Assembly: GCF_001467585.1 (NCBI RefSeq)
Contig: NZ_LNXY01000031.1
Coordinates: 16,669 to 80,668, forward strand
Length of the DNA stretch: 64,000 nucleotides
Reading direction: 5' to 3'
Source: Legionella drozanskii LLAP-1
GTDB lineage: Bacteria > Pseudomonadota > Gammaproteobacteria > Legionellales > Legionellaceae
In this document: in pieces, positions 6,203-32,629 of the stretch
How positions within the stretch are numbered: the first letter of the stretch is position 1
Layout: each line of letters starts with the position of its first letter
Position numbers and translations under genes: made by a program
The notes under the pieces: model-generated
Database searches by the model: none
Told to the model about the DNA's origin: nothing
Seen by the model: only the letters and a program-made list of their open reading frames with translations

Positions 6203-6463
6203 CTAACTTAGATTGAGCATTGATTGCTTTGGTTTTCTTATTATACAAAATATCATTATAAAATATGGACTTGAATTTTATACATGGTATTTTAGTCGTT
6301 GGGATTTAAAATTCAGCTTATTCAATGAGAGCATAGAGGCTATTGACAATTCGCTTAACTTCTTAGATTCAGCAGCTTGTCCGCGGTGTCCCTTTCTTTC
6401 TTGATAAAACAAAACATCCTCTTATGTCCAAAATCCACAGATACCGTGGTATATCGACGCAGG
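6203..6463. other. AT-rich gap between the transposase remnant and the repeat-protein gene
   Basis: I see no gene, RNA or terminal inverted repeat here. The plus frame of the repeat protein is open back to a TTG at 6377 but lacks a ribosome-binding site there. The promoter of the repeat-protein gene probably lies in this stretch, but I could not single one out. Confidence 0.4.
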
Positions 6464-9052: not shown

Positions 9053-9227
9053 GCCTATTTTTTATTCTTTGGGAATTCTGCTGATTTTGATCCAACTTTG
9101 ATTATATTTTTCAACAGGCTGGAGGGTTTTGTTAACCGCACTGCTATTTATGCAAGCCCAACAAACAATTAATGCACATTGATAAAAAATAGGGTTGATT
9201 TACCTAAGGAACGGTTTAACTACTTGG

Positions 9228-10034
9228 TTAAGCTAAATTAAGCTTTGAACTTTCTTCACTGGAAGGATTTTGCTCACTTGTTAAAATGCTTTCGAGCAAC
9301 TTTCCAGTGCGGTTGCTGAAAAAACCTTTGTCAATTTGAGGATAGTTTTCTTTTACTTCCTTAATCGCATTTGGGACGTCCATGAATTTTGTAAGACGTA
9401 ATAATTCTTGCAAACCTGCAATTTTTTCCTCTTTTCTTTCTTTATGTATACATATATAAAAACTGCTTATTTCTGCATTAAGCTCGTCTATGCGTGCCTG
9501 TACTAAACCCACTTTTTCGGGACACAGTCTTGATGAGATGACATCATAAGAATAATGAGTACTTTTAGCATCCATTAGGCCGTGTACTTTTCTTCCATCA
9601 TATTCTGGTACTGCGTTTAACTCCGCAAAGTCATTTTGATATTGTTCAACTTGATTTTCATTAAGATAATCATTGGCTACTAATGATTTAAACAGGGGAT
9701 CTAAAGTTTCTTGCTCGATGTAAAAAATGCCGCGATACAACCGCATAATATTTTTTAACATTTCAAAGAAGTATGTTGCTTGGTGAGCAGGTACACCATG
9801 CATGCCTGAATCGGGAGAATAACTAACGGGTAATTGATAATGGCCCTGCAAAGAGTGAACCGCTCTTTCTATTCTGCTACGCAGGACGTAATTAACCTGA
9901 TACATAGAAAATCTAAACAAAATACTATCAGGATAGCTCGCAGTGTAATGAGTAAGCGGCGCTAAGCCGTATACTTCATAAGCGCCAATCACTGATTTTT
10001 TCTTTTCAAATTGCAACTCAATTTTGGATTTCAT
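9228..10034 (-). CDS. Unrecognised protein with effector-like C-terminus
   Basis: The protein has 268 residues, is soluble by appearance, and has no signal peptide or membrane helix. I do not recognise a catalytic domain. The N-terminal half is aromatic-rich (repeated Tyr, Phe, His), and residues about 180-210 are charged. The segment DVPNAIKEVKENYPQIDKG, followed by FFSNRTGKLLE, resembles a C-terminal element I associate with Legionella-specific proteins, though I cannot confirm this. The tail ends SSEESSKLNLA: a glutamate/serine cluster followed by small hydrophobics, as in many Dot/Icm substrates. The gene stands alone, outside the island, on the chromosomal side of the left junction. A Legionella-restricted hypothetical protein is the safe call. 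Confidence 0.6.
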   Translation of the reverse strand: MKSKIELQFEKKKSVIGAYEVYGLAPLTHYTASYPDSILFRFSMYQVNYVLRSRIERAVHSLQGHYQLPVSYSPDSGMHGVPAHQATYFFEMLKNIMRLYRGIFYIEQETLDPLFKSLVANDYLNENQVEQYQNDFAELNAVPEYDGRKVHGLMDAKSTHYSYDVISSRLCPEKVGLVQARIDELNAEISSFYICIHKERKEEKIAGLQELLRLTKFMDVPNAIKEVKENYPQIDKGFFSNRTGKLLESILTSEQNPSSEESSKLNLA

Positions 10035-10379
10035 TTTTTTTCTATCAACAAGTAATTACGGACAGCATTATATCAAAAATAATTACAGAGCCTATATAAA
10101 TACCAAGTTATGGTCATTGCGAGTACAATTATATTTAAATTAAGTCAAAATCAGAAAATAATAGCAGTTCTCAATCGATACATTTATTGTCTGTGAATCA
10201 TTCTCTTGAGGCAGTTAGGGTCATGGGGCCTCGTCTTTTTGCGATCACATAAAGCCCCTTAGGCCCCGCTTTTAGGTAGGCTCTTGGGGCTTTGATGAAT
10301 CTGTTGGACGAAAGATAAATAAAAAAGGCCTTTATATCAAGGCCTATCGGATGCTTTTGGATGTCTCGGGAAGTCAATA
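10035..10379. other. Chromosomal gap before the island's left junction, with two hairpins
   Basis: This 345-base stretch has no convincing gene. Two inverted repeats are visible. AAAGCCCC at 10251-10258 pairs with GGGGCTTT at 10286-10293, and AGGCC at 10326-10330 pairs with GGCCT at 10341-10345. They may be terminators or remnants of what once followed ssrA. Two short minus frames spanning 10198-10549 cross the island junction and look like chance. Confidence 0.4.
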
Positions 10380-10402
10380 TGGTGGAGGCGGCGGGAATTG
10401 AA
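10380..10402. repeat. Left attachment-site repeat (copy of the ssrA 3' end)
   Basis: Bases 10380-10398 are identical to 32607-32625, the CCA end and acceptor strand of the tmRNA. With one mismatch the match extends to 10402. To the right the sequence departs from tmRNA. This is the expected product of site-specific integration into ssrA: one end keeps the working gene and the other keeps a short duplicate. It sets the distal boundary of the island. Confidence 0.85.
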
Positions 10403-10439
10403 TTCAATTCCTGTGGTGTTGATTTTATTGATGAAATTA

Positions 10440-10476
10440 TTGGTATATTTTAAATATACCAACAAAAGTACCAACA
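10440..10476. repeat. Integrase arm-type site, left end
   Basis: TTGGTAT, ATACCAAC (10456-10463) and GTACCAACA (10468-10476) stand in the same order and orientation as at 32462-32494, just upstream of the integrase gene. Shared ACCAAC motifs inside both island ends fit arm-type binding sites for the tyrosine integrase. The function is inferred from position and repetition. Confidence 0.55.
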
Positions 10477-10660
10477 GATGTTTTTGAATCATCTTTGACG
10501 TTAAGAACCTAGATCTTCGAAATCTTGGCGCAGCATAACAACCCCGCAAATCCTTTTGAGATGATTAAGAGCCTTGTACTCTATGCTGTTCTTGATATTA
10601 CACTCTCATAATAATTGCCAATTTAGAACGTCATTTGTTACTGACAAAGTAAACCAATTT
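10477..10660. other. Left-end island spacer
   Basis: I see no gene or RNA in these 184 bases between the arm-type site and the last gene of the biosynthetic operon. A terminator for that operon would be expected here, but no stem followed by a T-run stands out on the minus strand. Confidence 0.35.
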
Positions 10661-10975
10661 TTAAATACTACCTGCTTTCTCTATAACAAGTATTCTTGCA
10701 GCCCCTTGTGGATGAGCTACGTGCTCACATCCTTCTTTCAAATAACATATATCTCCAGCCTTTAATTCTTTTTGATTTTCTACACCACCCTCAAGGTAGT
10801 GCATAATTACGTGCCCTTCCAGAACAACAAAAACTTCATCTCCATCATTTTTATGCCAGATGTATGGTTGATCTGTCCAATGAAGTCTAATAGTCGCACC
10901 GCCAGATATTTGAGCAATATCCAGTGCTTGCCAAGCAAAATCGCCAGTAAATAATGATGATTTGATTATTTGCAT
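10661..10975 (-). CDS. Small cupin-domain protein
   Basis: This is a 104-residue single-domain cupin. Cupin motif 1 is visible as YIWHKNDGDEVFVVLEG and motif 2 as LKEGCEHVAHPQG. The metal-binding pattern is weaker than classical G(X)5HXH(X)3-4E(X)6G: one histidine before DGDE, the Glu, and a later histidine. It may be a metal-poor or accessory cupin, such as an isomerase, a cyclisation helper or a binding protein. It is the last gene of the minus-strand operon, 71 bases after the ATP-grasp gene, and next to the island's left end. Its position suggests a role in making or handling the operon's product. Confidence 0.75.
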   Translation of the reverse strand: MQIIKSSLFTGDFAWQALDIAQISGGATIRLHWTDQPYIWHKNDGDEVFVVLEGHVIMHYLEGGVENQKELKAGDICYLKEGCEHVAHPQGAARILVIEKAGSI

Positions 10976-11046
10976 AATGCCCCAAGTATTCCGATAAAAA
11001 TTTTTAGTATAATACCGAAATTCAAAAATTTCTCCAGGTTATTCGA

Positions 11047-12315
11047 TTATGCAGCAGCCAGAATAAATAACCCATTTTGTTCTAATTGTCTGATTGAAAG
11101 ATAATCACTTTCAACTTGCTCTCTTGATTCATGACTTAGAATTAATAAACCTGGCATGGAAAAGAGGTCGACAGTTTTCTTAAGGTAAGTCCCAGGTCGG
11201 ACGTTAAGTTTAAGTGTTACAAAACTATTTAATTTTTTAATATATTCCATATTTTGATGCTCATCTGATATATAGCTTTCAAAATGAGAGATTAAAAAGA
11301 CTATCCTGGTATGTTTTATGAGTTTAAATCCAATTTTATTTTCCGATATTTTAGATTTGTTTAATATCGAGTCTAGTGTTACGTCCAGATGACTATTTCC
11401 AGTAGCTAATCTACATGCAGGAATAGCAACACCTCCATGAGGGCGAATTCCTGTTTCAATTAATTGTGGTCCTTTATCTGTAAGCATAATTTCTGAATGG
11501 GCCGGACCGTATTTAATTCCTAAACCATCAAGTACTTTGTATGCATATTCAGCAAGTGTATGCTGTATATTTCCTGTTTCAGGTAAAAAATCTAAATAGT
11601 CATAAACAAATTTTGAATTATTAGCATTGGTTTTTTTATAACAACAAATATTCGTTATTATATGATTACCTGCAATACTTGTAGAATCTACTACATATTC
11701 TGTGCCGGTTAAGTATTCCTGAGCTATTAAATCGTCATTTTTAAAATTAAGCTGATTAACTTTGCCTAAATTCTGTTTGACGGCGTCAATTAACTCATCT
11801 TCATTAAAGCAAACAAGTACGCTATCAGTTCCTGCACTTTTTAATGGTTTAATGACAACACCGCAGTCAAACAAATTATTACTATTAACCCAAGCTAAGA
11901 ATTCACCAGGCAAGTTACTTTTAATTGCCCTGGGAACATCTACATGAAGTTGACTTAATTGTTGCGCCATTTCATATTTATTTCTTCTACAGCTGCTTAA
12001 GGCTGTCCCATTTGAATACTCGGTGCAAAATCTTTCAGATATCTTATCCGCTAATTCTACCCCAGACTCAGCACCGGCTAGAACCATCGTTAGATCTTTT
12101 TCTTTTAAGAACTCATTTAATTCGCAAAAAAATTCTGAATTTTCAGAATAAGTAAAAATATATTTAAAATCAGAAGGTTTAAAAGAGTCCCTATATACTT
12201 CAATAATTGGATAATGTGACAAAATGGCAACGGGAATAATGTCTCGTTTTATTAGTGCTTCAGCATATAAAGCTCCTGAAGAAAAAGGGTCAACAATTAA
12301 TGCATATTTATTCAT
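11047..12315 (-). CDS. ATP-grasp ligase, amino acid/carboxylate ligase type
   Basis: ATP-grasp enzymes activate a carboxylate as acyl phosphate and join it to an amine. This 422-residue protein has an N-terminal Rossmann-like domain. Its ATP-grasp core has GVVIKPLKSAGTDSV near residue 165 (nucleotide lysine and glycine loop), LIAQEYLTGTEYVVD near 205, and the metal-binding end GPAHSEIMLT then LIETGIRPHGG near 275-300. The overall plan matches L-amino acid ligases such as BacD. Lying between an MFS exporter and a small cupin, downstream of the SznF-like oxidase, it may add an amino acid or other carboxylate to an oxidised intermediate. The substrates cannot be read from sequence. It starts 33 bases after the MFS gene. 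Confidence 0.87.
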   Translation of the reverse strand: MNKYALIVDPFSSGALYAEALIKRDIIPVAILSHYPIIEVYRDSFKPSDFKYIFTYSENSEFFCELNEFLKEKDLTMVLAGAESGVELADKISERFCTEYSNGTALSSCRRNKYEMAQQLSQLHVDVPRAIKSNLPGEFLAWVNSNNLFDCGVVIKPLKSAGTDSVLVCFNEDELIDAVKQNLGKVNQLNFKNDDLIAQEYLTGTEYVVDSTSIAGNHIITNICCYKKTNANNSKFVYDYLDFLPETGNIQHTLAEYAYKVLDGLGIKYGPAHSEIMLTDKGPQLIETGIRPHGGVAIPACRLATGNSHLDVTLDSILNKSKISENKIGFKLIKHTRIVFLISHFESYISDEHQNMEYIKKLNSFVTLKLNVRPGTYLKKTVDLFSMPGLLILSHESREQVESDYLSIRQLEQNGLFILAAA

Positions 12316-12348
12316 ATCGATCTCACTTTTACGTAAATTAAATTATTA

Positions 12349-13560
12349 CTAAACCGCAACAGAATAGTTTGGTGTTTGTTGTTTTAGATTTTTATTTGTA
12401 TAGAAATATAATATAGTCTCTACTATTAACATTCCTGCGCTCACCCCAATTCCAATTACCATTAAATCAAAAGAAGGTTTGGAAACAAAAAAAGCTAGGC
12501 CAAGCGGTGCAAGAGCTTTTATAATTGCAGTCATCGCAGTTATGCGACCAGTCCATTCGAGTATTTCGTCGGTGTTTGATACGGCGTCATAAATAAATTC
12601 ACGTTGCTTTATACGAAAACAGCTGACCAAAAATCCAAGAAATAATGTAGCTGTGCTTATTAGGTATATATCCGTTATTGCAAAAAATAAAATATCGACC
12701 AATAAAATACCGAGGAAAGCTAATATCCATATCTTTGAAAAGGTTCCTTTTTCTAACATAATAAAAGTGGCTAAGAATCCACCAAACTCTGCCGCAGCAT
12801 CAATAAATCCATATTGTGATGCTGACCACATTTTTTCATGTTGAGCAATTAAAGGTACCAAAAAATTAAAAGCAGAAATTTGTGTCATTAGTAATGTTAG
12901 ACCGATAAATGCAAGTCTTAAAACTGGTAAATTAGTTTTTTGAGTCATTTTCTGATAAAAGGCATTTTTTTTATTTTGGCTTGTACTGATGCTTTGCTTG
13001 TTTACATCTGACTGCATTCTGAAAAACATTGCACCGATTAAATAAGTAACAATGCAAAAAAGCAAAACAGCAACCATATTCCCTAGCCCCAATATTAGCC
13101 CAAGCAAGGCAGCGCCAAGAAAAGACGAGCTAAGAGTAGCTATTTGTAGAATGCGAGAGGCTTTGTTCGAGCTTATTCTTTTTTCGAGTACTTCCTGAGC
13201 CATCATTGCTTCAAGAGTTATTGTGCTCAAAAAGTTAATCATTGTTGCTACCATACCTGCGAGATAAAGAAGCCAAATGGTTTCGTGCCATAATAACGGT
13301 AAGAATATAATAGAGAAACTAACCCCGATGACTCTTATCCACATAAAAGAACGACTAGGTGTTTTTTCTAGCATCCGTCTGAAACCAATGCTCGATTTTT
13401 GTAATGCAAAAGTTACGATAGTAATCAAACAAAGAAAAAGACCTAATGTTTTTGCTGAGCCATCTAACGTTAAAACTCTCCAGATAATAGCTAGTCCAAA
13501 TAATATGTCACCTGAGAGAGTAAGCGAGAGGGCGATCATAAGTTTTAAATAACGTATCAT
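12349..13560 (-). CDS. Major facilitator superfamily transporter
   Basis: This 403-residue protein has about 12 hydrophobic segments and no signal peptide, the layout of an MFS carrier. There is a long polar loop near the middle (about residues 187-208, including SDVNKQS). Of the known groups it looks most like drug/metabolite:proton exporters. Within the operon it is flanked by the Rieske gene (24 bases upstream) and the ATP-grasp gene, so export of, or self-protection from, the cluster's product is the natural inference. Import of a precursor cannot be excluded. Confidence 0.85.
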   Translation of the reverse strand: MIRYLKLMIALSLTLSGDILFGLAIIWRVLTLDGSAKTLGLFLCLITIVTFALQKSSIGFRRMLEKTPSRSFMWIRVIGVSFSIIFLPLLWHETIWLLYLAGMVATMINFLSTITLEAMMAQEVLEKRISSNKASRILQIATLSSSFLGAALLGLILGLGNMVAVLLFCIVTYLIGAMFFRMQSDVNKQSISTSQNKKNAFYQKMTQKTNLPVLRLAFIGLTLLMTQISAFNFLVPLIAQHEKMWSASQYGFIDAAAEFGGFLATFIMLEKGTFSKIWILAFLGILLVDILFFAITDIYLISTATLFLGFLVSCFRIKQREFIYDAVSNTDEILEWTGRITAMTAIIKALAPLGLAFFVSKPSFDLMVIGIGVSAGMLIVETILYFYTNKNLKQQTPNYSVAV

Positions 13561-13584
13561 AGTAATAATCCTAATTTTAAATAT

Positions 13585-13842
13585 TTAGAGATAAAAAATC
13601 TGATCTTTAACGCGAACAGCTGGGATTGAGTTTTTTAGTAAGGAAACAATCTTGAAGCGTCCATCATGCCAAGGACATTGAATCATTTGTGATTCTCGAC
13701 ATACCTTCCCTAGACTTAATGGACCACCTCGGTGAGGGCATTTATCAGGTATTGCGAAGCGTTTATTATTTGATTTTACGATAAAATAATTTTCATCGTT
13801 TTTACAGAACCTATCTTTTATGATGCGTTTTTTATTAATCAT
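13585..13842 (-). CDS. Small Rieske [2Fe-2S] ferredoxin
   Basis: The protein is 85 residues. The Rieske ligands are Cys35 and His37 in CPHRGG, and Cys56 and His59 in CPWHDGRF, spaced as in Rieske ferredoxins. It lacks a membrane anchor and a catalytic oxygenase domain, so it should be a soluble electron carrier. Its stop-start spacing to the upstream SznF-like gene is only 2 bases, which points to a functional pair in which the ferredoxin feeds electrons to the diiron or mononuclear iron centre. No ferredoxin reductase is in the operon, so a host reductase would be needed. Confidence 0.9.
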   Translation of the reverse strand: MINKKRIIKDRFCKNDENYFIVKSNNKRFAIPDKCPHRGGPLSLGKVCRESQMIQCPWHDGRFKIVSLLKNSIPAVRVKDQIFYL

Positions 13843-13844
13843 TT

Positions 13845-15206
13845 TTATGCTCCAGTTGAAATTGCAATTGGCTGAACTACATATTGAGTATTTTCTGATT
13901 GCGAGACCGTGGAGTGTAACCGACCTTTAGGTATCACAATTTTAGTGCTAGCTTTTAATGTAATGGGGCTTATGCTATTAGGATAGAAAATTAACTCCCC
14001 CCTGGTTACTTGAAACAATTCATCTTCTGTATGTAAGTGAGCGGTAGTGGTTTCAAGTTCGGTCTCATTAAATGTTAACTTTTCCTTAAGAGGAGCGTAA
14101 TTGCCAGGAAAATAGTTTTCATCTAATTGATCGCTGAACTGAATTTGCTGGATTAAATCGGTATCTGCCATGCTTTGCAGTAATCTGAATGCTTCAAATC
14201 CAAATAAAATATCCTCAATTACTTCTTCTCCATATTTATCGATACTTGTAGCTATTATTTTTTCAAGAACCATACGTCTATGATGTTTGTCTATATGGAC
14301 ATGTTCGTCAAAATATTTTGTATTAATATCAGGTAAAATGTTTTTTAAAATTCCACTAACTTGCTTGTTAAAATGGGGAATACTTGCTTCGGTGTAATAT
14401 AACGTCCCTATATATTTGAACCAATCAGATTTATTTTTGCATATACAATGAAAGTAATTAACTAACATAAGTGATGTAGTTAGATAATCATTATAGTAAT
14501 GATGTATAGCAGGGCTTAAATTAGCTGAAAGCATAGTAGCTTCAAATAGGGTAGAGTGTTTTGTTTCATGAATTCCATAACCATACTCATCTATGAATAC
14601 TTTCATTAATTCTGATTGTTCAGGCCCGAAGGAACCTGGTAATGCTCTTGCCATTGCTGAAGCTTCACTAAGGAAATCAGGAGCCATTTGAATAAGCAGC
14701 ATTTTGGCGGCTCGTATGGGATTTTTGGAATTAGATATAACAGAGCAAAGCTCACTAGCCTCTTTTTCTTGGCCATGAATAGTATTAGTTAGGTAATCTA
14801 ATAATTTTGGTTTAGTCCAATTACCTATTATTTCAATTTCATTTTTTAAAAAATTGAATACTAACATTTCAAGTTTAGGTAACATTGCTTTGCCAATAGC
14901 TACATAATATGGATCATAGAAGTTAGCGAAGTCTCTTTTGGCTTCGTTCAAGTTGTTATTGCCCAAAAATAAAAGATCTTGCTCGTAAATATTAAGCAAC
15001 AGCTTATTGATGATAAGGTTTTTATTAGTATTTACTTCAGATAGTGTAATTGCAGAATCATAGTTAATGTTTAATGCATCATTGGTTCTCAATGGTCGTA
15101 TATATGGATTTGGAGGGGTTAGAAATGGTGCATCACTAAAACAGGGGTTGAGCAGATATATATTTAACCACTCCTTAAAGTTTTGCTGAATGAGGTTGCC
15201 AGGCAT
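13845..15206 (-). CDS. SznF-like diiron oxidase-cupin fusion (candidate N-nitrosating enzyme)
   Basis: The protein has 453 residues: an N-terminal helical part, a central heme-oxygenase-like diiron oxidase (HDO) domain (about 150-350) and a C-terminal cupin (about 373-453). Candidate diiron ligands are E181, E207, H217, E273, H302, D306 and H309. SznF of streptozotocin biosynthesis, as I recall it, uses E189, E215, H225, E281, H311, D315 and H318, a constant offset of 8 then 9. The cupin has H390, H392 and H431, against SznF H407, H409 and H448, a constant offset of 17. In SznF the HDO N-hydroxylates a methylarginine guanidine and the cupin rearranges it to an N-nitrosourea. Here the substrate is unknown. 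It is the first gene of the operon, with AAGGAT before the ATG. Confidence 0.88.
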   Translation of the reverse strand: MPGNLIQQNFKEWLNIYLLNPCFSDAPFLTPPNPYIRPLRTNDALNINYDSAITLSEVNTNKNLIINKLLLNIYEQDLLFLGNNNLNEAKRDFANFYDPYYVAIGKAMLPKLEMLVFNFLKNEIEIIGNWTKPKLLDYLTNTIHGQEKEASELCSVISNSKNPIRAAKMLLIQMAPDFLSEASAMARALPGSFGPEQSELMKVFIDEYGYGIHETKHSTLFEATMLSANLSPAIHHYYNDYLTTSLMLVNYFHCICKNKSDWFKYIGTLYYTEASIPHFNKQVSGILKNILPDINTKYFDEHVHIDKHHRRMVLEKIIATSIDKYGEEVIEDILFGFEAFRLLQSMADTDLIQQIQFSDQLDENYFPGNYAPLKEKLTFNETELETTTAHLHTEDELFQVTRGELIFYPNSISPITLKASTKIVIPKGRLHSTVSQSENTQYVVQPIAISTGA

Positions 15207-15254
15207 ATAAGATCCTTATTATTATTTTAACAGACGACAAATTCCATAAAATGA

Positions 15255-15282
15255 AAAATACCATACAGTAAAAATATGTCAA
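15255..15282 (-). promoter_or_regulatory. Predicted promoter of the SznF-like operon
   Basis: On the minus strand, TTGACA (15282-15277) and TATTTT (15260-15255) are separated by 16 bases and lie about 50 bases upstream of the start codon at 15206. The spacer contains the partial dyad TACTGTATGGTA, a possible regulator site. Confidence 0.55.
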
Positions 15283-15330
15283 CAAATTTAGTGATTATTA
15301 ATTCTGAATATAGAAATATTTTACAAATAG

Positions 15331-15360
15331 TTGAGTTATCCGCGAAGACCAGGCTATAAT
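15331..15360 (+). promoter_or_regulatory. Predicted promoter of the regulator gene
   Basis: TTGAGT (15331-15336) and a perfect TATAAT (15355-15360) are separated by 18 bases. They lie about 67 bases before the regulator's ATG at 15427, in the divergent region shared with the SznF-like operon. Confidence 0.6.
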
Positions 15361-15384
15361 CTACAAATATTGTATAAAGTAGAT
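15359..15384. promoter_or_regulatory. Dyad overlapping the regulator promoter, candidate operator
   Basis: ATCTAC (15359-15364) and GTAGAT (15379-15384) are inverted, with 14 AT-rich bases between them. The left arm overlaps the -10 box and the centre lies near the expected transcription start. This placement fits autoregulation by the adjacent XRE-type protein. The function is inferred. Confidence 0.4.
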
Positions 15385-15426
15385 GACTAATATAAATACA
15401 TCTTTTTGGATTAGAGAAAGTAAAAA

Positions 15427-16155
15427 ATGATTAGAAGAAAAGTGAAAAAAATTGATTTTACAGTTCTTGGTGAAAATATTACTCGTCTAATGAACGCCTG
15501 TGGCATAGATGCAACTGAGCTTTCTCAACAAACAGGCTTACCATGCAGCACTATTAGTAGGTTGCGATCTAACTCCTGCGAGTTTAGTCCTAATATATCT
15601 TCTCTATTACCAATAGCTGAATATTTTTGTATCAATTTAAGTCAATTAATCGGGGAAGAGCCTATTAAGCAAGATATGTATGCCACCTTCAAACCGATTA
15701 AAGTTCGAAAATTACCAATTCCAATTTTGCAATCAGAAACTATTCTTACTTACTTAGATAGTATGGAGTTAGGTGATAATCCATTGCTAAACATTGATTT
15801 TCCATTAAGTGAAAGAGCATTTGCTTATTTACTACGTGGTAATTCAATGGAACCGCAATTCCCAGACAAAACGCTATTGATTATAGATCCTTATATTGAA
15901 GAAGAAAATTTAGACCATGTATTGGTACTTCCAGCAGGAAAAAAAATACCTCTATTTAGGCAAATTTTAATTGATGGTGAAGAAACATATATTAGAACTT
16001 TAAATCCGGCTTTTAACGAGTTCGTAAAACTGGATGATAACACCCATAAAATATTAGGTGTTATGGTGCAAGCACGAATGAATTTTAAAGAAGTTAGCAT
16101 GACCTCTTTGCAAAATGACATGGATAAGAAACTTAAAGTTTCAGAGAAAAGTTGA
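15427..16155 (+). CDS. XRE-family regulator with LexA/S24-like C-terminal domain
   Basis: The protein has 242 residues. The N-terminal helix-turn-helix spans about residues 12-78 (ATELSQQTGLPCSTISRLR is the recognition region). The C-terminal domain resembles S24 repressors, with the serine motif GNSMEP (S140). Where LexA-like proteins carry the catalytic lysine in a VKR-type strand, this protein reads IPLFRQI (about 175-180) with no lysine, so self-cleavage may be lost and the domain may sense or dimerise instead. The gene is divergent from the SznF-like operon and shares a 220-base promoter region with it, so it is the probable regulator of that operon. It is followed 7 bases later by a transporter gene. 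Confidence 0.85.
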   Translation: MIRRKVKKIDFTVLGENITRLMNACGIDATELSQQTGLPCSTISRLRSNSCEFSPNISSLLPIAEYFCINLSQLIGEEPIKQDMYATFKPIKVRKLPIPILQSETILTYLDSMELGDNPLLNIDFPLSERAFAYLLRGNSMEPQFPDKTLLIIDPYIEEENLDHVLVLPAGKKIPLFRQILIDGEETYIRTLNPAFNEFVKLDDNTHKILGVMVQARMNFKEVSMTSLQNDMDKKLKVSEKS

Positions 16156-16162
16156 GTGTAAT

Positions 16163-16864
16163 ATGAATTCCAATGCTGTACCTATAAAACCAATTGTTTT
16201 GCTTAGCATGCTTTACATGTCCTTATTTTTTGCATCAGTAACAGTGGGGTATAAGATTGTAGCTTTTGGCAATCAACTTTATTGTGCGTCGGTTTTAATA
16301 TTCCCATTATTATTCCCTTTCAGTGATGCTCTAACAGAAATTTACGGCGTACAGATTGCTAAAAGCATGGTTTGGTATACGGTAATTTGTGAAGCCGTCT
16401 TTGTCGGATTAACGAATGTTGCCATTAGACTCCCATCACCCCCAAATTGGCATCATCAAGCAAAATATGATTTCTTTATTGGTGGGTATACTCATATACT
16501 TTTGGCCAATGCCACTGCGTTAATAGTAAGCTTTTATTTAAATATTCTATTAGTAAATAAATGGCGGATACTATTAAAGGGCAAGCATTATTACATGCGT
16601 AGCCTTGGGGCCACTGCTGTGGGAGAGGTTACATACACGATTATTACTAACGCTATAACCTATTATGGTGTTTTGCGTTGGCAAGAGACCGCAAATATTA
16701 TTATTTCTGATTACCTTGTTAAGTTAGTTTATTCTGCAATTATAGCGTACCCTGCTGCGCTATTGGTGGTTTATCTCAAGGTTAAATATAAAATAGATAA
16801 TACCCAGGTGGTGTTTAATCCTTTTATGAAAAATAAAATAGTTAAAATAGCGGACTATAGATAA
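16163..16864 (+). CDS. VUT/YhhQ-family membrane transporter (queuosine precursor type)
   Basis: The protein is 233 residues with about six hydrophobic segments. FPFSDALTEIYG near residues 50-61 is the signature of the YhhQ/VUT family, whose characterised members import 7-deazaguanine precursors of queuosine. I chose the ATG at 16163 (MNSNAVP), just after the regulator's stop. A longer frame would overlap the regulator. It is probably co-transcribed with the regulator, since only 7 bases separate them. Why an island carries it is unclear: tRNA modification supply or uptake of a related heterocycle are options. Confidence 0.8.
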   Translation: MNSNAVPIKPIVLLSMLYMSLFFASVTVGYKIVAFGNQLYCASVLIFPLLFPFSDALTEIYGVQIAKSMVWYTVICEAVFVGLTNVAIRLPSPPNWHHQAKYDFFIGGYTHILLANATALIVSFYLNILLVNKWRILLKGKHYYMRSLGATAVGEVTYTIITNAITYYGVLRWQETANIIISDYLVKLVYSAIIAYPAALLVVYLKVKYKIDNTQVVFNPFMKNKIVKIADYR

Positions 16865-16868
16865 TTTT

Positions 16869-17609
16869 CTAAATGACTCTTCCCACCAATAGATTGATTT
16901 GCCATTTTATTATTTTTTTAACATTTATATCACCCCATGTAGAAATGAATTTTTCTTCCAGTTGAGAAAGTATATTTGCATGGGTGTTTTTTTCGTATTC
17001 TAATAATCCAGGCCACGTTGCAATGTATCCATATAATTCTTTTAAATTCCATTCTACGGATAGTTCAAAATTAGGTGTTGGGACCCGTTTAAATGGAAAT
17101 GGTATTGTTTCATAGTGGTCATAGACATATTGTCGCTGTATTGATCTATTTTCTGGGCTGCTAATCAAACTATAAATTTGATTTATTAAAGCATCTATTT
17201 TGGAATCAATTGTGCATTGGTTGTAGCACCATGCAGCAATAATACCGTTAGGCTTCACTATTCGATTAACTTCACTATAAAATTGATCTAAAGAAAACCA
17301 ATGAAGTGCTTGGCCAATAGTTACCATATCAACCGTATGAGACCGTATTGGCAAATATTCTGCTGCTGCTTGTACATATATCAAATTAGTTTTTTTCTGA
17401 GTCGTTTTTAATAAATCATAAGATAAATCAGTAGCAATAACATATTCAAAATGTTGTGTTAAATCACAAGCTACTTGTCCACTGCCAGTACCACAATCTA
17501 TTACTAATTTTGTTTGAGAGATTAGAGTCGTGAGATAATCATATAAATTTAAGGGATAGCGAGGCCGATTATCCGTATACTCTTGAGCATTATGTAAAAA
17601 TTTATTCAT
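16869..17609 (-). CDS. Class I SAM-dependent methyltransferase (UbiE/Methyltransf_11 type)
   Basis: The protein has 246 residues. SAM-binding motif I is VIDCGTGSGQVACDL (about 36-50), followed by the acidic motif II VIATDLS and the motif IV region MVTIGQALHWFSLDQF. This matches small-molecule methyltransferases of the trans-aconitate/UbiE group. Its start overlaps the end of the upstream 180-residue gene by 8 bases, so the two are coupled. It converges on the transporter gene with a 4-base gap. A role in the SznF-like pathway (SznE in that pathway is a methyltransferase) is tempting but not supported by sequence, as it lies in another transcription unit. Confidence 0.85.
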   Translation of the reverse strand: MNKFLHNAQEYTDNRPRYPLNLYDYLTTLISQTKLVIDCGTGSGQVACDLTQHFEYVIATDLSYDLLKTTQKKTNLIYVQAAAEYLPIRSHTVDMVTIGQALHWFSLDQFYSEVNRIVKPNGIIAAWCYNQCTIDSKIDALINQIYSLISSPENRSIQRQYVYDHYETIPFPFKRVPTPNFELSVEWNLKELYGYIATWPGLLEYEKNTHANILSQLEEKFISTWGDINVKKIIKWQINLLVGRVI

Positions 17610-18144
17610 GATTAGTTAGATCATGCTTTTTTATAACCTTCAAACGTAGTGAAGATAACCATGATTGCTCCTGCCCCGCCAGGTATCCCAATTTGTAGGC
17701 GTCGTGCGAGGTCAATTTCTCTATAATATCCAGGTCATTAAAATCTTTTAATGTTTTAATAATTATGTTACCAGTCTTTTTGTCTCTTAATTGGATCGAT
17801 TTATTACCATCTATATTTTTAGATCGGATAAGCTCAAGTGATTTTTTTACTTTTTCTTCCGCAAGAATAGCCTCGTATTTGTCACTTGTTGCCAAATAGA
17901 CGATTGTTCTAATGTCAGTAGAACAAAATCCCAAAAGAAAATTGTTATCTGAAGCAACTTCTTCAGCATAAAAATTTAAGTTTTGCCCTTTACCTGTAAC
18001 TTTAACCTCAACGCGATGTTTATTAGTAATAGTGCAGGGAGTAATGGCCTTTAGCTCATAAGCATATTGATTTTTAAATTGCCTGAAGGTAGCCTTAATA
18101 TTTTCTAATAAAGACTTGGCATGTGAGGTTAAAGCTTTATACAT
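17602..18144 (-). CDS. Unrecognised 180-residue protein coupled to the methyltransferase
   Basis: I do not recognise the family. The protein is soluble in appearance, mixed alpha/beta, with a basic N-terminus (KALTSHAKSLLENIKATFRQ, likely helical) and a C-terminal segment containing GYLAGQEQSWLSS. No signal peptide or membrane helix is seen. It is the first gene of a two-gene unit with the methyltransferase, overlapping it by 8 bases. Upstream (18145-18260) is a short gap separating it from the defence operon, where its promoter must lie. Confidence 0.65.
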   Translation of the reverse strand: MYKALTSHAKSLLENIKATFRQFKNQYAYELKAITPCTITNKHRVEVKVTGKGQNLNFYAEEVASDNNFLLGFCSTDIRTIVYLATSDKYEAILAEEKVKKSLELIRSKNIDGNKSIQLRDKKTGNIIIKTLKDFNDLDIIEKLTSHDAYKLGYLAGQEQSWLSSLRLKVIKKHDLTNHE

Positions 18145-18260
18145 TATGTGCCTAAACGTAAATTGATAGGATTATAGCCCTCATCGGAGATGTGAGCAAA
18201 TAAGAGCTTGTCATATATTAACCATGTTTGTAATAATTTTTAGGCAATGAAGAAACTAAC

Positions 18261-18971
18261 TTAAATCAGTGACATCTCCAATTTGTATTTTCGTTGCATC
18301 CAATCGGGCAAGGAAGCTTCTAAAAGCTTAAAAAAATCACGGCTATGGTTGTGATATACCAAATGGCACAGCTCATGAATAATAACGTATTCGATGCATT
18401 CTTTAGGAGTTTTAATTAGTTGTACATTTAAAGACAAAGTACCTGCTTTTGACAGGCTCCCCCAGCGCTTTTCCAGCGAGAGTATTTTACAAGCAGGTTT
18501 GGGATGCTCTTTATTCTTGAATTTCTCCCAACACTCATTAAAGATATTATGCAAATGGATGTGAGCTTTTTCTCGATACCATTTATTTAATAATAGCTTT
18601 ATTTGTTCTGGGTCGGTATTTTTCGTATCTATTAGAAAATATCCATTCTTTAAGCAAACTAGATTATTTTCGGCCTTTGAAATTTTCAGGCGGTATCTCT
18701 TGCCTAAGTACAAATGCGTTTCACCCCCAACATATTTTCGTGAAGGTGTCCGAGGATCGAACTGATCAAAATAATGAATCTGGCGTTTGATCCAGCGAGC
18801 ACGTTTTTGTACTCGTATTTCAATTTCATCAATATGTGTGCCAATAGGCGCTTTAACGAAAATAGACTTGTCAGGGTGTACCGCTATTTCAAGCGATTTT
18901 CGTGAAGAAAAACTGACTTGAAAAGGAATAATACTCTCTCCATATGTGATGCTATGAGTCCTTTCGAGCAT
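18261..18971 (-). CDS. YgjP/DUF45-type zinc metallopeptidase of the hsd locus
   Basis: The protein has 236 residues. The zinc motif HELCH (H199-E200-x2-H203) is followed by NHS (H209), the YgjP/WLM pattern. Upstream there is the conserved WGSLSKAGTLSLNVQL segment typical of the family. Genes of this family often sit next to hsdR. Their function there is unknown, perhaps turnover of the restriction complex. The start codon overlaps the hsdR stop by one base, so it is the last gene of the defence operon. Confidence 0.87.
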   Translation of the reverse strand: MLERTHSITYGESIIPFQVSFSSRKSLEIAVHPDKSIFVKAPIGTHIDEIEIRVQKRARWIKRQIHYFDQFDPRTPSRKYVGGETHLYLGKRYRLKISKAENNLVCLKNGYFLIDTKNTDPEQIKLLLNKWYREKAHIHLHNIFNECWEKFKNKEHPKPACKILSLEKRWGSLSKAGTLSLNVQLIKTPKECIEYVIIHELCHLVYHNHSRDFFKLLEASLPDWMQRKYKLEMSLI

Positions 18972-21900
18972 TAATCACGCCTCCTATGCCTTGCAATTTG
19001 CATCGCTTTTTCAATTATTTCATCCATATGTTCTAAGCTTAATGACACCCCACATTCCTCTTTAACTTTATCATAGAGAAAATCATCAATATCATTTTCG
19101 GTTTTTCTTTGCGCATCGGTATCATCCCAAAAATCAACCTTCCAATGTACATCAATAATTTTCTGAACAGCTAGGGAGGTTGCAGCAGAAACAGAATCAA
19201 TTAACTGCTCTTCTAAATTATGCTGCATGAAATAGGGTTTAATTAAACCAAAATAAGCACAGGCTTCATCATTTGTTCGGATGCTCTCAGGCACGTCATC
19301 ATGCTGCCGTGTAGCCACCTTATCACGTAGATCAACCACACGGTTAAGATAGTCTAAATCTGAGATTCGCTTCGCTCTAAAGTCCTCTATAGCGGCTTGA
19401 ATTAGCTTTGAGAATTTCTCATAGAAAGCAGGATCTTGATCCATATTTTCTGTGATTGTGCGTTTAGTAGCATGGGCAATAGTATCTGCTTTAGATGCCG
19501 TGGTCTGCGTTTGATAAACACCTTGATTCTCTTTAACCATGTTAAATGTTTTTTCATCAAAAATGTTCACAGGCTCATTAAGCTGCGTGACTTCATTCGC
19601 TTGAATATGAGTATCAAGTAGTTTTTTAATCTTGGGGGCATAATCCCGATAATCAATCGCCTCAGCGTAACGTAATTTCACTGCAGCTTTTAGATTTTGG
19701 AAGCGCCTTAAGTCGGATTTATAGTTTTGTAATTTTTTCTCGTCTGTTCCCATAATGAACTGTTCAGATGAAAGAGCAATTCCTAGTGTCTTGCTGTAGG
19801 CTGATAGGCATTCATAAAACTCATCTCGCAGTTCCTCGTTCGCTAATAATGCCTCATAGGCTTCTTCATCTTTGGAATTTTTAACCGATTTGAATAAATC
19901 CCACAACTCAGAATATCGCTGGGGTAATTTAGCGACTTCCACATTAATTGATGTTAGTGTACCCGCTAGATCTTCCTCATCATAACCTTCAAATGCTTCA
20001 TACATAGTTAGTGCTTTATCAAGCTCACCTAAAACACTTGCATAGTCGATAATATAACCAAAGTCTTTGCCTTCGTATAAACGGTTAACACGCGCTATTG
20101 TTTGTAATAGGGTATGCTCCGTCAATGTTCGGCAAAGATAGAGCACTGTATTACGTGGAGCATCAAAACCTGTAAGCAATTTATCAACAACAATTAAAAT
20201 TTCCGGTTCATCACCATGTTTGAATTGATTGATAATTTGCTTGGTATATTCTTCTTCCGAACCAAAACGCTTCATCATTTTGATCCAGAATTTACCGACT
20301 TCATCCGAAGGACCAGCATCTACTTCGTCATGCCCTTCGCGTGTATCTGGACCGGAAATAATAACTTCTGAACTTACTATCCCAATTGTGTTTAGAAACT
20401 CATGGTATTTAAGGGCAACTTCTTTTCGAGGAGCGACTAACTGTGCTTTAAAGCCAGTGCCTTGCCAATTTTCTCTATAATGTTCGCTAATATCGAAAGC
20501 TTGCATATAGACCACTTGATCGGTTTTATTTAGCATTTCAGCACGCGCATATTTTTTCTTTAGATCCGCTTTTTGCTCTTTATTGAGATCGGCTGTGTGT
20601 CGATCAAACCACAAATCGATAGCTGCTTTATTTTGCTCCATTTCCACAAGTCTACCTTCATATAGCAAAGGTAACACGGCTTCATCAGCAACTGCTTGCT
20701 TAATAGAATAATGAGGCTCTATAAGTCCACCAAATTTAGCAAAATTGTTTTTTTCTTTTTTGAGTAACGGTGTTCCAGTAAAGCCCAAATAACAAGCATT
20801 GGGTAACATTTGACGCATACGCGCAGCAAGAGAACCAAAGTTAGTACGATGGCTTTCATCTACCAGTACATAGATATCAGGAGATTCATCGACATATTTT
20901 TCAGCAGTCCAACCTTTGTCAAACTTATGAATTAGAGTAGTGATGATGCCTACTTTATTTTTTAGATGCCTCACCAAATTACGCCCAGAAGTCGCTCGCT
21001 CTTTGCTAAGCCCACAGGCGGTGAACGTATTCCCTAATTGCTTATCAAGATCATCACGATCTGTTACCAAAATAATTCTAGGGTTAATTAGCTCTGAATC
21101 TAAAACCATAGCACGAGCAAGCATAACCATTGTTAATGATTTTCCTGAGCCTTGTGTGTGCCAAATGACACCCCCTTGACGTGTTCCATGCGTTTCTATT
21201 CTTTTGATACGAGCAAGTGTTGAACGAATCACAAAAAATTGTTGATAGCGCGCGATCTTTTTTATACCACCATCAAAAATAGTAAATTGATATACTAAAT
21301 TAAGCAGACGCTCAGGACTGCATAAACTAAAAATAGATTGATCTTGTTCTGTTGCAAGCCGTTCACCTTCTTGCTCAAGTGTATCAAAATATTTGCGAGC
21401 AATTGAAAATTCACCTGAATAAAGAAGATCTTTGTTTGTTTCACTTAGAGGAGTATTGATACTTAGATCAACTTCATTTTTATGTTCCTCTAGCTCTTTC
21501 CAAACACTCCAAAACTTTTTAGGCGTTCCGGCAGTAGCGTAAAGTGCTGCATTTTTATTAACTGCTAAAACCAGTTGAATATATGTAAACATCCGTGGAA
21601 TATAATCATCTCCCTGATTACGAATACTCTGAGAAATTGCTTGATCAACTTCAATTTTTGGCGATTTACATTCAATGATGCAAAGAGGAATACCATTCAC
21701 AAAAAGAACAATATCAGGCCGTGTTGTATCAGTACTACGAGAGCGTTCAACGGAGAACTCAGCAGCAACATGAAAAACATTATTTTTTGGATTTTTCCAA
21801 TCAATATAATTCAGTGTGAAACTTTTAGAATCACCCTCAATCGTTTGATCCATTGCTGTGCCTAGAGTGATTAGATCATAAACAGCTTCGTTGGTTTTTT

Positions 21901-22207
21901 GTAGACCATCATATTTCACGTTTTTAAGCTTTTGAATAGCTGTTTGAATATTTTCTTCACTGAATAGATAGATATTATCTTTATATTGAATACGATTAAT
22001 CTCTTTTAGTTGCTGGCGAAGAATATTTTCCAGTAATACATTAGATATTCGACCACTTCGTTCAACAAGGATCTGCTCCGGTTTCAGATATTGATAGCCT
22101 AAATTAATTAATTGTTGAAGTGCGGGTATTTGGGAAATATATTTTTCATTAAAGCGAAAGCTTTCATCCTTAGTGTCGCAATTTTCAATTTTCATATCAT
22201 CTTTCAT
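18971..22207 (-). CDS. hsdR: Type I restriction enzyme HsdR (motor-nuclease) subunit
   Basis: HsdR cuts unmodified DNA after ATP-driven translocation, in complex with HsdM and HsdS. The protein has 1078 residues. The N-terminal nuclease motif is D165 in RPDIV, then E179 and K181 in IIECK. Walker A is TQGSGKS (about 351-357), the Walker B/DEAD-like box is DESH (450-453), and later helicase motifs include GFTGTPL and ARVNRLYEGKDFG. All core motifs look intact. Its ATG overlaps the stop of the nucleotidyltransferase gene by 4 bases, so translation is coupled to the CBASS-like pair instead of directly to hsdS. Confidence 0.96.
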   Translation of the reverse strand: MKDDMKIENCDTKDESFRFNEKYISQIPALQQLINLGYQYLKPEQILVERSGRISNVLLENILRQQLKEINRIQYKDNIYLFSEENIQTAIQKLKNVKYDGLQKTNEAVYDLITLGTAMDQTIEGDSKSFTLNYIDWKNPKNNVFHVAAEFSVERSRSTDTTRPDIVLFVNGIPLCIIECKSPKIEVDQAISQSIRNQGDDYIPRMFTYIQLVLAVNKNAALYATAGTPKKFWSVWKELEEHKNEVDLSINTPLSETNKDLLYSGEFSIARKYFDTLEQEGERLATEQDQSIFSLCSPERLLNLVYQFTIFDGGIKKIARYQQFFVIRSTLARIKRIETHGTRQGGVIWHTQGSGKSLTMVMLARAMVLDSELINPRIILVTDRDDLDKQLGNTFTACGLSKERATSGRNLVRHLKNKVGIITTLIHKFDKGWTAEKYVDESPDIYVLVDESHRTNFGSLAARMRQMLPNACYLGFTGTPLLKKEKNNFAKFGGLIEPHYSIKQAVADEAVLPLLYEGRLVEMEQNKAAIDLWFDRHTADLNKEQKADLKKKYARAEMLNKTDQVVYMQAFDISEHYRENWQGTGFKAQLVAPRKEVALKYHEFLNTIGIVSSEVIISGPDTREGHDEVDAGPSDEVGKFWIKMMKRFGSEEEYTKQIINQFKHGDEPEILIVVDKLLTGFDAPRNTVLYLCRTLTEHTLLQTIARVNRLYEGKDFGYIIDYASVLGELDKALTMYEAFEGYDEEDLAGTLTSINVEVAKLPQRYSELWDLFKSVKNSKDEEAYEALLANEELRDEFYECLSAYSKTLGIALSSEQFIMGTDEKKLQNYKSDLRRFQNLKAAVKLRYAEAIDYRDYAPKIKKLLDTHIQANEVTQLNEPVNIFDEKTFNMVKENQGVYQTQTTASKADTIAHATKRTITENMDQDPAFYEKFSKLIQAAIEDFRAKRISDLDYLNRVVDLRDKVATRQHDDVPESIRTNDEACAYFGLIKPYFMQHNLEEQLIDSVSAATSLAVQKIIDVHWKVDFWDDTDAQRKTENDIDDFLYDKVKEECGVSLSLEHMDEIIEKAMQIARHRRRD

Positions 22208-25518: not shown

Positions 25519-25622
25519 TGTCTCTTTCTCCCTTCCATTATTTATGTTCACCCATATGTTCCAAAATGGAACTTGTGCATTTTTTGGCAAATTTTTTCGA
25601 GAGGTATTTCACGAAAAGAGGT

Positions 25623-27137: not shown

Positions 27138-27160
27138 GTATTAATCCTTAGTATCAATAA

Positions 27161-30657: not shown

Positions 30658-31224
30658 CTACTTGGTAACGATTCCACTATTTTTATTTTTTCTCCATTCT
30701 CTACACCAACTCTCTATTGTATTTGGATTAGTTAATACGGGAAATTTTTCTAGCATATCCAATGCAAACGCTATCTGAGTATCATACAGGGTTATTGTTT
30801 CTTGCCATTTGTCCCAATATTCTTTTACCGAACTTTTAGCTGCCTGTTTTTTCTCTGAATCCTTATTGCGTTTTGTTTCACCACCTTTCCTTCCATTTTG
30901 AATTCTTTTATTTTTTTGATGAACATTGAGTTCATTCACCACCTCAGTAGCATTAAATTGAAATGCTGCAACTGTATTTTGAGTAATAATTTCTTGGTAT
31001 TGAGGAAATTGATTCGAAGCAAATTTCGTTTTTAGATTGGCATTTTCCGCCTCTAAATATTGAACTGTTTCATTTAATATTTCTGCAGTAGCCGTTGCTT
31101 CTGCTGCATAATTGATTAACTTCTCATATGGAATATTTAATGAGAGCAAAGATTCTTTATGTAATTTAATTTTTTCTGCCTGATATTTTTCATAATATTC
31201 CATCTCATCTGAAAAAGTGCTCAT
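30658..31224 (-). CDS. Coiled-coil protein of unknown function coupled to the integrase
   Basis: The protein has 188 residues and I do not recognise the family. There is a predicted coiled coil at about 45-70 (AEATATAEILNETVQYLEAE), a basic middle (RKGGETKRNKDSEKKQAAK, about 115-133) and a helical C-terminus. Its ATG overlaps the integrase stop by 4 bases, so it is translated with the integrase. A DNA-binding or replication accessory role is plausible but unsupported. Confidence 0.7.
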   Translation of the reverse strand: MSTFSDEMEYYEKYQAEKIKLHKESLLSLNIPYEKLINYAAEATATAEILNETVQYLEAENANLKTKFASNQFPQYQEIITQNTVAAFQFNATEVVNELNVHQKNKRIQNGRKGGETKRNKDSEKKQAAKSSVKEYWDKWQETITLYDTQIAFALDMLEKFPVLTNPNTIESWCREWRKNKNSGIVTK

Positions 31225-32441
31225 TCTGTCTCTCTCATTGTACTGTTAATTGAAGTTCGTTTTAATTCATTCAGATAATCCGCCCATTTCTGCATCATCT
31301 CCCTTCGCTCTGGTAAATGTGTAGTACGGTTATAAGCACGTCCATTAGGATCACGGACAGCATGTGCAAGTTGGTGTTCAATATAATCTGGTCTGATATG
31401 CAAGATTTCATCAATAAGCGTTCTGGCCATTGCACGAAATCCATGCGCACTAATTTCACTCTTGGCAAATCCCATACGACGCAAAGCGAAATTCAGGGTA
31501 TTTTCACTCATTGGGCGAATGCTGGTCTGTTCACTGGAAAATAAATATTTCCCTCGCCCAGTAAGCGGATGGAGTTCTTTTAATATAGCTATAGCTTGTT
31601 TCGACAAAGGCACTAAGTGTGCAACACGCATTTTCATCCGTTCAGCTTTGATATTCCATTCCGCTGCATCCAGATCAATTTCAGCCCATTCAGCGGCTCT
31701 TAACTCTCCCGGACGGACAAATACTAACGGCGCAAGCTGTAAAGCGCATTTTGTTATAAAGCTCCCGTGGTATTCATCAATTGCTCGTAAGAGCTCACCG
31801 ATAGCCTTAGGATCGGTCATCGTTGCAAAGTGTGTTGTTTTTGCAGGTTGAAGTGCACCCTTTAAATCAGGTACAGGATCGCGTTCGGCTCGACCAGTTG
31901 CTATGGCATATCGAAATACTTGGCTACAATTTAACAAGGCTCGGCGAGCTGTTTCCTTTACGCCACGCTCTTCAATACGCCGTGCAGCAATTAATAGTTG
32001 CTGCGCGGTAATCGATACAATAGGACTGCTTCCAAGCCAAGGAAAAATATCTCGCTCAAGACGGCGAATGATTTTATCTGCATGGGTAGGAACCCAAATA
32101 GGGGATTGATTGGCAAACCATTCCCGAGCCACAACTTCAAAGCTATCCATATCCTGACTGGTCTGTGATTGTTTTAAGGCTTTGCGATGCTCACTCGGAT
32201 CGACTTTCGTCTTCTTTAACAAGGCACGGGCTTCTTCTCGTAAATCTCGTGCTTCCGCTAAACTTACTTCTGGGAAAACCCCCAATGCGAGCGTTTTCTG
32301 CTTTCCATCAAAGCGATAGGAATAGCGCCAATATTTTTTCCCGTTTGGTTGGATCAGTAAAAATAATCCTTGGCCATCAGAAAGCTTTAACGGTTTATCC
32401 AACTCTCGCTTTTTCTTAACATCTAGAACAGATAATTTCAT
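31221..32441 (-). CDS. int: P4-like tyrosine integrase of the ssrA island
   Basis: The protein has 406 residues from the ATG giving MKLSVLDVKKKREL. The N-terminal arm-binding domain (DUF4102-like: LSDGQGLFLLIQPNGKKYWRYSYR) is followed by a core-binding domain and a catalytic domain. Catalytic residues are seen as Arg in VRPGELRAAEW, His-x-x-Arg in HGFRAM, a later His in QLAHAV, and the tyrosine in RAYNRT. It ends 380 or so bases from the ssrA 3' end, which is its attachment site. Upstream sequence to 32495 is open but contains the arm-type sites, so I prefer the shorter start. Confidence 0.93.
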   Translation of the reverse strand: MKLSVLDVKKKRELDKPLKLSDGQGLFLLIQPNGKKYWRYSYRFDGKQKTLALGVFPEVSLAEARDLREEARALLKKTKVDPSEHRKALKQSQTSQDMDSFEVVAREWFANQSPIWVPTHADKIIRRLERDIFPWLGSSPIVSITAQQLLIAARRIEERGVKETARRALLNCSQVFRYAIATGRAERDPVPDLKGALQPAKTTHFATMTDPKAIGELLRAIDEYHGSFITKCALQLAPLVFVRPGELRAAEWAEIDLDAAEWNIKAERMKMRVAHLVPLSKQAIAILKELHPLTGRGKYLFSSEQTSIRPMSENTLNFALRRMGFAKSEISAHGFRAMARTLIDEILHIRPDYIEHQLAHAVRDPNGRAYNRTTHLPERREMMQKWADYLNELKRTSINSTMRETE

Positions 32442-32444
32442 TTT

Positions 32445-32494
32445 GTTGGTATCACATAGTGTTGGTATCGAAAATACCAACGATAGTACCAACA
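32445..32494. repeat. Integrase arm-type sites, right end
   Basis: GTTGGTAT occurs at 32445-32452 and 32461-32468, and inverted copies ATACCAAC and GTACCAACA at 32474-32481 and 32486-32494. The same TTGGTAT, ATACCAAC, GTACCAACA series stands at 10440-10476. The repeats sit directly upstream of the integrase start, where they could also autoregulate it. Confidence 0.55.
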
Positions 32495-32606
32495 CATAGC
32501 GCAGGACATCAGGGAATTATTGGGAATAGCTAGGAAGCCAAACCTCGTAAAACCTAGTGTTTACAAGGCTTAAAAGGACTTTTCAGGAACATCTAAGATT
32601 AGTAAG

Positions 32607-32629
32607 TGGTGGAGGCGGCGGGAATCGAA
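32607..32629. repeat. Right attachment-site repeat within the ssrA 3' end
   Basis: Bases 32607-32625 match 10380-10398 exactly, and the match continues to 32629 with one mismatch. They encode the CCA end, acceptor strand and part of the T-arm of tmRNA. This is the junction that keeps ssrA whole. Confidence 0.85.

Follow-up and report, generated by a model that had tools for sequence, protein, structure and literature searches.

Which nitrogen-nitrogen (N-N) chemistry, and on which substrate, can be expected of an SznF-like protein encoded in a Legionella genome? The question is raised by a gene in a 64,000-nucleotide stretch of Legionella drozanskii LLAP-1 DNA (hereafter the window), whose product combines a heme-oxygenase-like diiron (HDO) domain with a cupin. 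SznF and StzF are described as the sole identified enzyme constructing an N-nitrosourea group, at least in the available part of PMC11705231. The reading favoured here, which we hold to be somewhat more probable than all others together, is that the window enzyme is a two-site metalloenzyme of the SznF type from a methyltransferase-independent branch; it would act on a guanidino amino acid that carries no methyl group, probably arginine, and its N-N product would be ligated and exported.

Sequence and fold of the enzyme

In a phmmer comparison the similarity of the window enzyme to SznF extends along almost the whole chain, with an E-value of about 1e-90, by which a chance match was rejected, and the two proteins are about 37% identical. 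The HDO domain, the C-terminal cupin and the N-terminal region of SznF are all found in one chain; in Pfam, the HDO family scores above and the cupin below the respective cut-off. The predicted model can be superimposed on SznF (PDB-ID: 6vzy) with 1.8 Å across 442 residues. Seven putative diiron ligands, three histidines and four carboxylates (E181, E207, H217, E273, H302, D306 and H309), align with those of SznF, as do the three putative cupin ligands H390, H392 and H431. The ten-of-ten correspondence of the first-pass annotation is thus confirmed and is extended by Y442, which aligns with the catalytic Tyr459 of SznF. In SznF, the cupin histidines and this tyrosine are required for the rearrangement (PMC11705231, accessible part). 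Searches by sequence and by structure for a family of another reaction yielded none as close as SznF, and single-domain HDO proteins such as RohS and HrmI were rejected as nearest kin by the same comparison. Sequence, fold and phylogeny support an SznF-type HDO-cupin protein with two putative metal sites, as had been proposed from the sequence.

The nearest homologue, from a metagenome-assembled genome of the Legionellales, is 57% identical over residues 11–417. A second, distant HDO-like frame is present in the genome of the host itself (L002, C3:5057-5575), with 23% identity over residues 165–336.

Two halves of the SznF family

SznF homologues are well known, and the window enzyme adds one more to this family. 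Reportedly, homologues in human pathogens are mentioned in the founding SznF paper. A total of 426 homologues has been listed; szn-type clusters account for SznF and a further 135, a diazeniumdiolate-type cluster for 118 proteins (PMC10849742, in the portion available). For the present comparison one genome per species was scanned; 152 relatives were confirmed and 80 kept, and the set was completed with the window and four loci from plasmids. SznF was placed in the tree and counted in no tally, one homologue whose frame is broken by stops (L072, with methyltransferase and Ada genes nearby) was excluded from tree and tallies, and contig ends truncate two loci (L009 and L043).

Maximum-likelihood trees divide the family into one half with SznF and 40 other members and a second half with the window enzyme and 43 others. 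Grouping with SznF and a separate clade had both been named in the first-pass annotation as possible outcomes of a phylogeny; the window protein falls outside the SznF clade. The two halves differ in a neighbouring gene. A PRMT-like methyltransferase gene is located within 2.5 kb of the enzyme gene at 36 of the 38 SznF-half loci with enough flank (the misses being L052 and L060), but at none of the 42 such loci in the half of the window, and two changes suffice to explain this distribution across 80 tree rows. The two methyltransferases tested both contain a PRMT_C domain, one of them slightly below the cut-off. Because the gene adjoins close homologues of SznF, and in view of the role described for SznE in the accessible part of PMC11705231, it would represent the counterpart of SznE. 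This gene, instead of SznE, served as query for a profile, which detected the methyltransferase in four of four positive-control genomes (E 2.7e-129 or better). When 14 genomes from the half of the window were searched with this profile, no orthologue was found; the best match (E 2.0e-12) covers half of the profile, and most of the others span some 50 residues. None is encoded in the window's own genome, at the operon locus or elsewhere. From the 42 loci and 14 genomes it can be concluded that this half has no SznE-like orthologue as a source of methyl groups. The counts are not independent, since 21 of its 44 rows are Pseudomonas; the methyltransferase-free half spans free-living Pseudomonas, Azospirillum and cyanobacteria.

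A similar split is seen for Ada-type repair genes, found within 6.5 kb at 14 of 25 loci of the SznF half versus 0 of 39 of the other, and without a match at positions 5001–26000 of the window. This absence agrees with a product that leaves DNA unmethylated. A Rieske gene lies near 82 of the 84 homologues. The split by methyltransferase and Ada is what this analysis adds, and the half containing the window is a pathway variant. No description of a methyltransferase-free branch was found in the literature searched, of which excerpts were available; the founding SznF papers lay outside that search, and an earlier description is possible.

Ten homologues (L043, L047, L049, L050, L063, L074, L075, L076, L080 and L085, of which L043 is cut by a contig end) possess all diiron ligands and lack the three cupin histidines. 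Being the reverse of ChmM (see below), they perhaps stop at an N-hydroxylated product. In one Pseudomonas homologue (L040), a lysine takes the place of diiron ligand E273.

The operon and its neighbourhood

Four genes on the minus strand, for the HDO-cupin enzyme, a Rieske ferredoxin, a transporter-like protein of the major facilitator superfamily (MFS) and an ATP-grasp amino-acid ligase, follow each other in this order (Table 1). The Rieske gene starts two bases past the enzyme gene, and its product is the probable electron donor. The MFS-like protein is probably an exporter, although this assignment is weak. The ligase is assigned to the NCBIfam subfamily PRK07206 with an E-value of 1.1e-153 and further matches dapdiamide synthase DdaF (E 2.3e-48, below the cut-off of that family) and an L-amino acid ligase of known structure (PDB-ID: 30vh, E 3.3e-45). 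Whether the small cupin protein belongs to the operon is uncertain; it has no match at the other enzyme loci. The position of a candidate promoter, a sequence-based prediction, fits the start of the operon, and 31 promoter-like sites in the region compare with a mean of 25.3 (sd 4.7) in shuffles, a slight excess. A methyltransferase gene at 16869–17609 was rejected as a stand-in for SznE, being of the Methyltransf_11 type, outside the operon and unmatched at other loci.

Table 1. Features of the enzyme locus and of the island, in window positions
Feature	Positions	Strand	Remarks
SznF-type HDO-cupin enzyme	13845..15206	-	453 aa
Rieske [2Fe-2S] ferredoxin	13585..13842	-	85 aa; C-x-H and C-x-x-H motifs both intact (CPH, CPWH)
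MFS-like transporter	12349..13560	-	weak: Pfam and NCBIfam scores below curated cut-offs
ATP-grasp L-amino acid ligase-like protein	11047..12315	-	PRK07206 subfamily
Small cupin protein	10661..10975	-	104 aa; 71 bp past ligase
Sigma-70-like promoter (candidate)	15255..15282	-	TTGACA, 16, TATTTT, extended TG; consensus match only
Helix-turn-helix / S24-peptidase-like regulator, divergent	15427..16155	+	link to operon hypothetical
Left attachment-site-like repeat	10380..10402	.	22/23 identical to 3' end of transfer-messenger RNA (tmRNA), one mismatch
Right attachment-site-like repeat	32607..32629	.	tmRNA 3' end; tmRNA gene 32607-33007, minus strand
Tyrosine integrase of island	31221..32495	-	–

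Accessory genes were tallied at loci with 4.5 kb downstream, 40 in the half of the window and 36 in the other. ATP-grasp ligases are present at 30/40 versus 21/36 loci, amino acid permeases at 5/40 versus 1/36, FeeM-type N-acyl amino acid synthases at 1/40 versus 0/36 and Lrp/AsnC regulators at 32/40 versus 0/36. The accessory genes vary apart from the Rieske gene, yet these four kinds point to an amino acid. As the MFS query set held one amino acid permease (from Azospirillum, L006), MFS counts were restricted to the 30 ligase-bearing loci. In Nannocystis, the FeeM-type gene (L010:9733-10293) directly follows the genes for the SznF-like and Rieske proteins.

The B3/4 domain is the editing domain of phenylalanyl-tRNA synthetase (PheRS). 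A PheRS-beta-type B3/4 protein is encoded just past the ligase at 26/40 loci of the window's half (26 of the 30 with ligase and transporter) versus 1/36 of the other (L011, at its edge), also outside Pseudomonas in Chitiniphilus, Jeongeupia and Reinekea and, in the other half, in Oscillatoria. The gene at L058 (12136-12831) matches Pfam B3_4 with an E-value of 9.2e-18, and in the PDB the stand-alone protein matches PheRS beta (E 2.3e-4). Such a protein may protect the producer from mischarging. The window genome contains no stand-alone B3/4 protein, its single match being located in a 792-residue frame that by size is pheT. Downstream of two cyanobacterial enzymes, one per half, a MOSC_N/MOSC gene (YcbX/mARC-like) is found (L005:16381-17208 and L011:3172-4029); the related mARC enzymes of humans convert Nω-hydroxyarginine to arginine by reduction (PMC10637980, in the part available).

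Substrate and product

In the favoured reading, the Rieske protein would pass electrons to the diiron site, which would perform two guanidine N-hydroxylations. The substrate would be a free guanidino amino acid without a methyl group, with L-arginine the likeliest; from arginine, Nδ,Nω-dihydroxyarginine would be formed as the intermediate. The cupin iron site would then rearrange the dihydroxyguanidine to an N-N bonded product, to which the ligase may couple a partner before export, perhaps through the MFS-like protein. The part of the first-pass annotation that names an SznF-like two-site protein is supported, and the proposed hydroxylation and rearrangement of a guanidine, giving an N-N product, is the most plausible reading of its activity. 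A plain transfer of the SznF reaction, from methylarginine to methyl-nitrosourea, finds no support, because a PRMT-like methyltransferase orthologue is missing from locus, genome and tree half alike. If no methyl group is installed, a DNA-methylating N-methyl-N-nitrosourea is not expected as the product, and the missing partner gene indicates that the enzyme probably makes an N-N compound other than the streptozotocin type. Nitroso-citrulline and graminine are both candidates.

A broader proposal, tentative and rather doubtful as a whole, is that the methyltransferase-free half is self-sufficient and needs no heme N-oxygenase to convert L-arginine directly to an N-N amino acid free of methyl groups, either L-graminine or Nδ-hydroxy-Nω-nitrosocitrulline. 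The product, free or as a dipeptide, would serve as a metal ligand or tRNA-mischargeable antimetabolite, the stand-alone B3/4 protein would protect the producer, and a tmRNA-integrated island would be bringing the trait to a Legionella-like bacterium.

Three other explanations were weighed. Since HrmI, RohS, FlcD and UndA share the HDO fold and catalyse other reactions (PMC13108848, excerpt) and many alignment positions differ between the two halves, the scaffold might be reused on an amine, an oxime or in a further non-guanidine N-oxidation; similarity over the full length, retention of all cupin and diiron residues of SznF and the lack of a closer family make this unlikely. Alternatively, SznF's own reaction could be carried out on imported Nω-methylarginine, freed from methylated eukaryotic proteins by a host-associated bacterium. 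Retention of every residue named for SznF catalysis, a genome suggestive of type IVB secretion and a ligase resembling those of methyltransferase-bearing clusters would fit this scenario. However, the lack of the methyltransferase is shared with free-living Pseudomonas, Azospirillum and cyanobacteria and no Ada gene lies near any of the 39 loci tallied in this half, so that we regard it as distinctly improbable. A halt at the N-hydroxylated guanidine, with a merely structural cupin, would be in line with the cupin-histidine-less homologues in the nearest clades, but is rendered very unlikely by H390, H392, H431 and Y442 of the window protein, whose counterparts SznF needs for rearrangement (PMC11705231, accessible part).

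Several observations weigh against the favoured reading itself. The window ligase is 35–37% identical to ligases of methyltransferase clusters versus 29–31% to those of the half to which its SznF-type enzyme belongs, and the ligase tree (three rows skipped as too short) places it with methyltransferase-bearing clusters, on a long branch. An ATP-grasp ligase is, moreover, not particular to this half. The MFS-like protein is at most 25% identical to those of its own half and is unmatched at several loci, and the window has neither the B3/4 gene of most comparable loci nor an Lrp gene near the enzyme. Besides the window enzyme and L009, the smallest well-supported group around them contains the Nannocystis homologue (L010) together with six proteins from myxobacteria that lack the cupin histidines; one of these six (L063) has an adjoining gene for a non-ribosomal peptide synthetase (NRPS). 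Half-specific positions are not significantly nearer to the ligands in sequence than expected by chance (5/9 within 8 residues, p 0.075; 3/9 within 4, p 0.18; 5/9 within 12, p 0.24), and altered pockets in the window's half are therefore unsupported. ChmM, thought to act on dihydroxyarginine, has so far been inactive in vitro (PMC10849742, portion available). Other substrates are conceivable: a different guanidine, an amine, or a guanidine that owes a modification to some unrelated enzyme. As the window operon is a mosaic, care is required in extrapolating from Pseudomonas.

The genomic island

The operon is part of a 22-kb element (10380–32629) at the tmRNA gene, which comprises attachment-site-like repeats, an integrase, a PriCT_2/AAA_25 protein and a type I restriction system. 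It is situated at the far end of the island, with a G+C content of 0.33–0.34 versus 0.37–0.41 to the left and 0.40–0.44 to the right of the island. The enzyme occurs in 1 of 143 genomes of the host's family, and its ligase is matched in 5 of 22 genomes of the genus, the other four at 25–31% identity. The island-flanking gene at 9228–10034 has only a domain in common with many proteins of the genus. No relative of the enzyme was found in viral contigs, and megablast of positions 9000–27500 against plasmids gave no match. The genome encodes DotI/IcmL of type IVB secretion, which suggests a host-associated lifestyle; a second match to this family lies within the window at about 45058–45423 (contig C31:61726-62091).

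Within the type I restriction operon, a CBASS-like pair of a CD-NTase (SMODS) and a SLATT effector with two transmembrane segments (22204–23519) is inserted between the S and R genes, and a BRO-N/PDC-S13-like gene (24664–25590) between M and S. A long tetratricopeptide-repeat protein (6377–9052) adjoins the island. Outside the island, a nitric oxide reductase-like gene, so read from its sequence (3608–5914), has a second genome copy of 94% identity; it was rejected as part of the system, being off the island and matched in 12 of 22 genus genomes, its own included.

Implications

If one whole half of the family has both metal sites but no methylating partner, N-N chemistry would be separated from DNA methylation as its outcome. 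N-N amino acids without a methyl group are then to be expected in Pseudomonas of soil and plants and in Azospirillum. The near-universal Rieske neighbour is a candidate natural electron donor for in vitro work, and the B3/4 genes suggest a mechanism of self-protection.

Comparison with known systems

With SznF/StzF of streptozotocin biosynthesis in Streptomyces achromogenes, the window enzyme shares domain layout, metal ligands, catalytic tyrosine and fold; it differs by moderate identity, its place in the other half of the tree and a cluster and genome without a methyltransferase orthologue. In contrast to the szn-type pathway, the enzyme is not accompanied by an SznE-type arginine guanidino-methyltransferase, nor by the DNA-alkylation repair gene seen at 14 of 25 SznF-half loci.

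ChmM-type proteins of the L-graminine pathway to chalkophomycin likewise have a three-histidine cupin, and their precursor is arginine, not methylarginine (PMC10849742, as far as available), as proposed here for the window enzyme. However, ChmM lacks the HDO iron ligands, all seven of which are present in the window enzyme, and is encoded beside a heme guanidine N-oxygenase (YqcI/YcgG) and NRPS and polyketide synthase genes; no NRPS is found among the open reading frames listed around the window enzyme. In that pathway, ChmN makes Nδ,Nω-dihydroxyarginine in vitro (PMC10849742, same portion).

The methyltransferase-free clusters of Pseudomonas, Chitiniphilus, Photobacterium, Reinekea and Gloeothece belong to the same half of the enzyme tree and share the order enzyme, Rieske protein, transporter and ATP-grasp ligase. 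Most of them, unlike the window, include B3/4 (26/30) and Lrp genes, and the window ligase is of another subfamily. With the single-domain N-oxygenases HrmI and RohS, finally, the window enzyme has the HDO fold and, by prediction, N-oxygenation in common.
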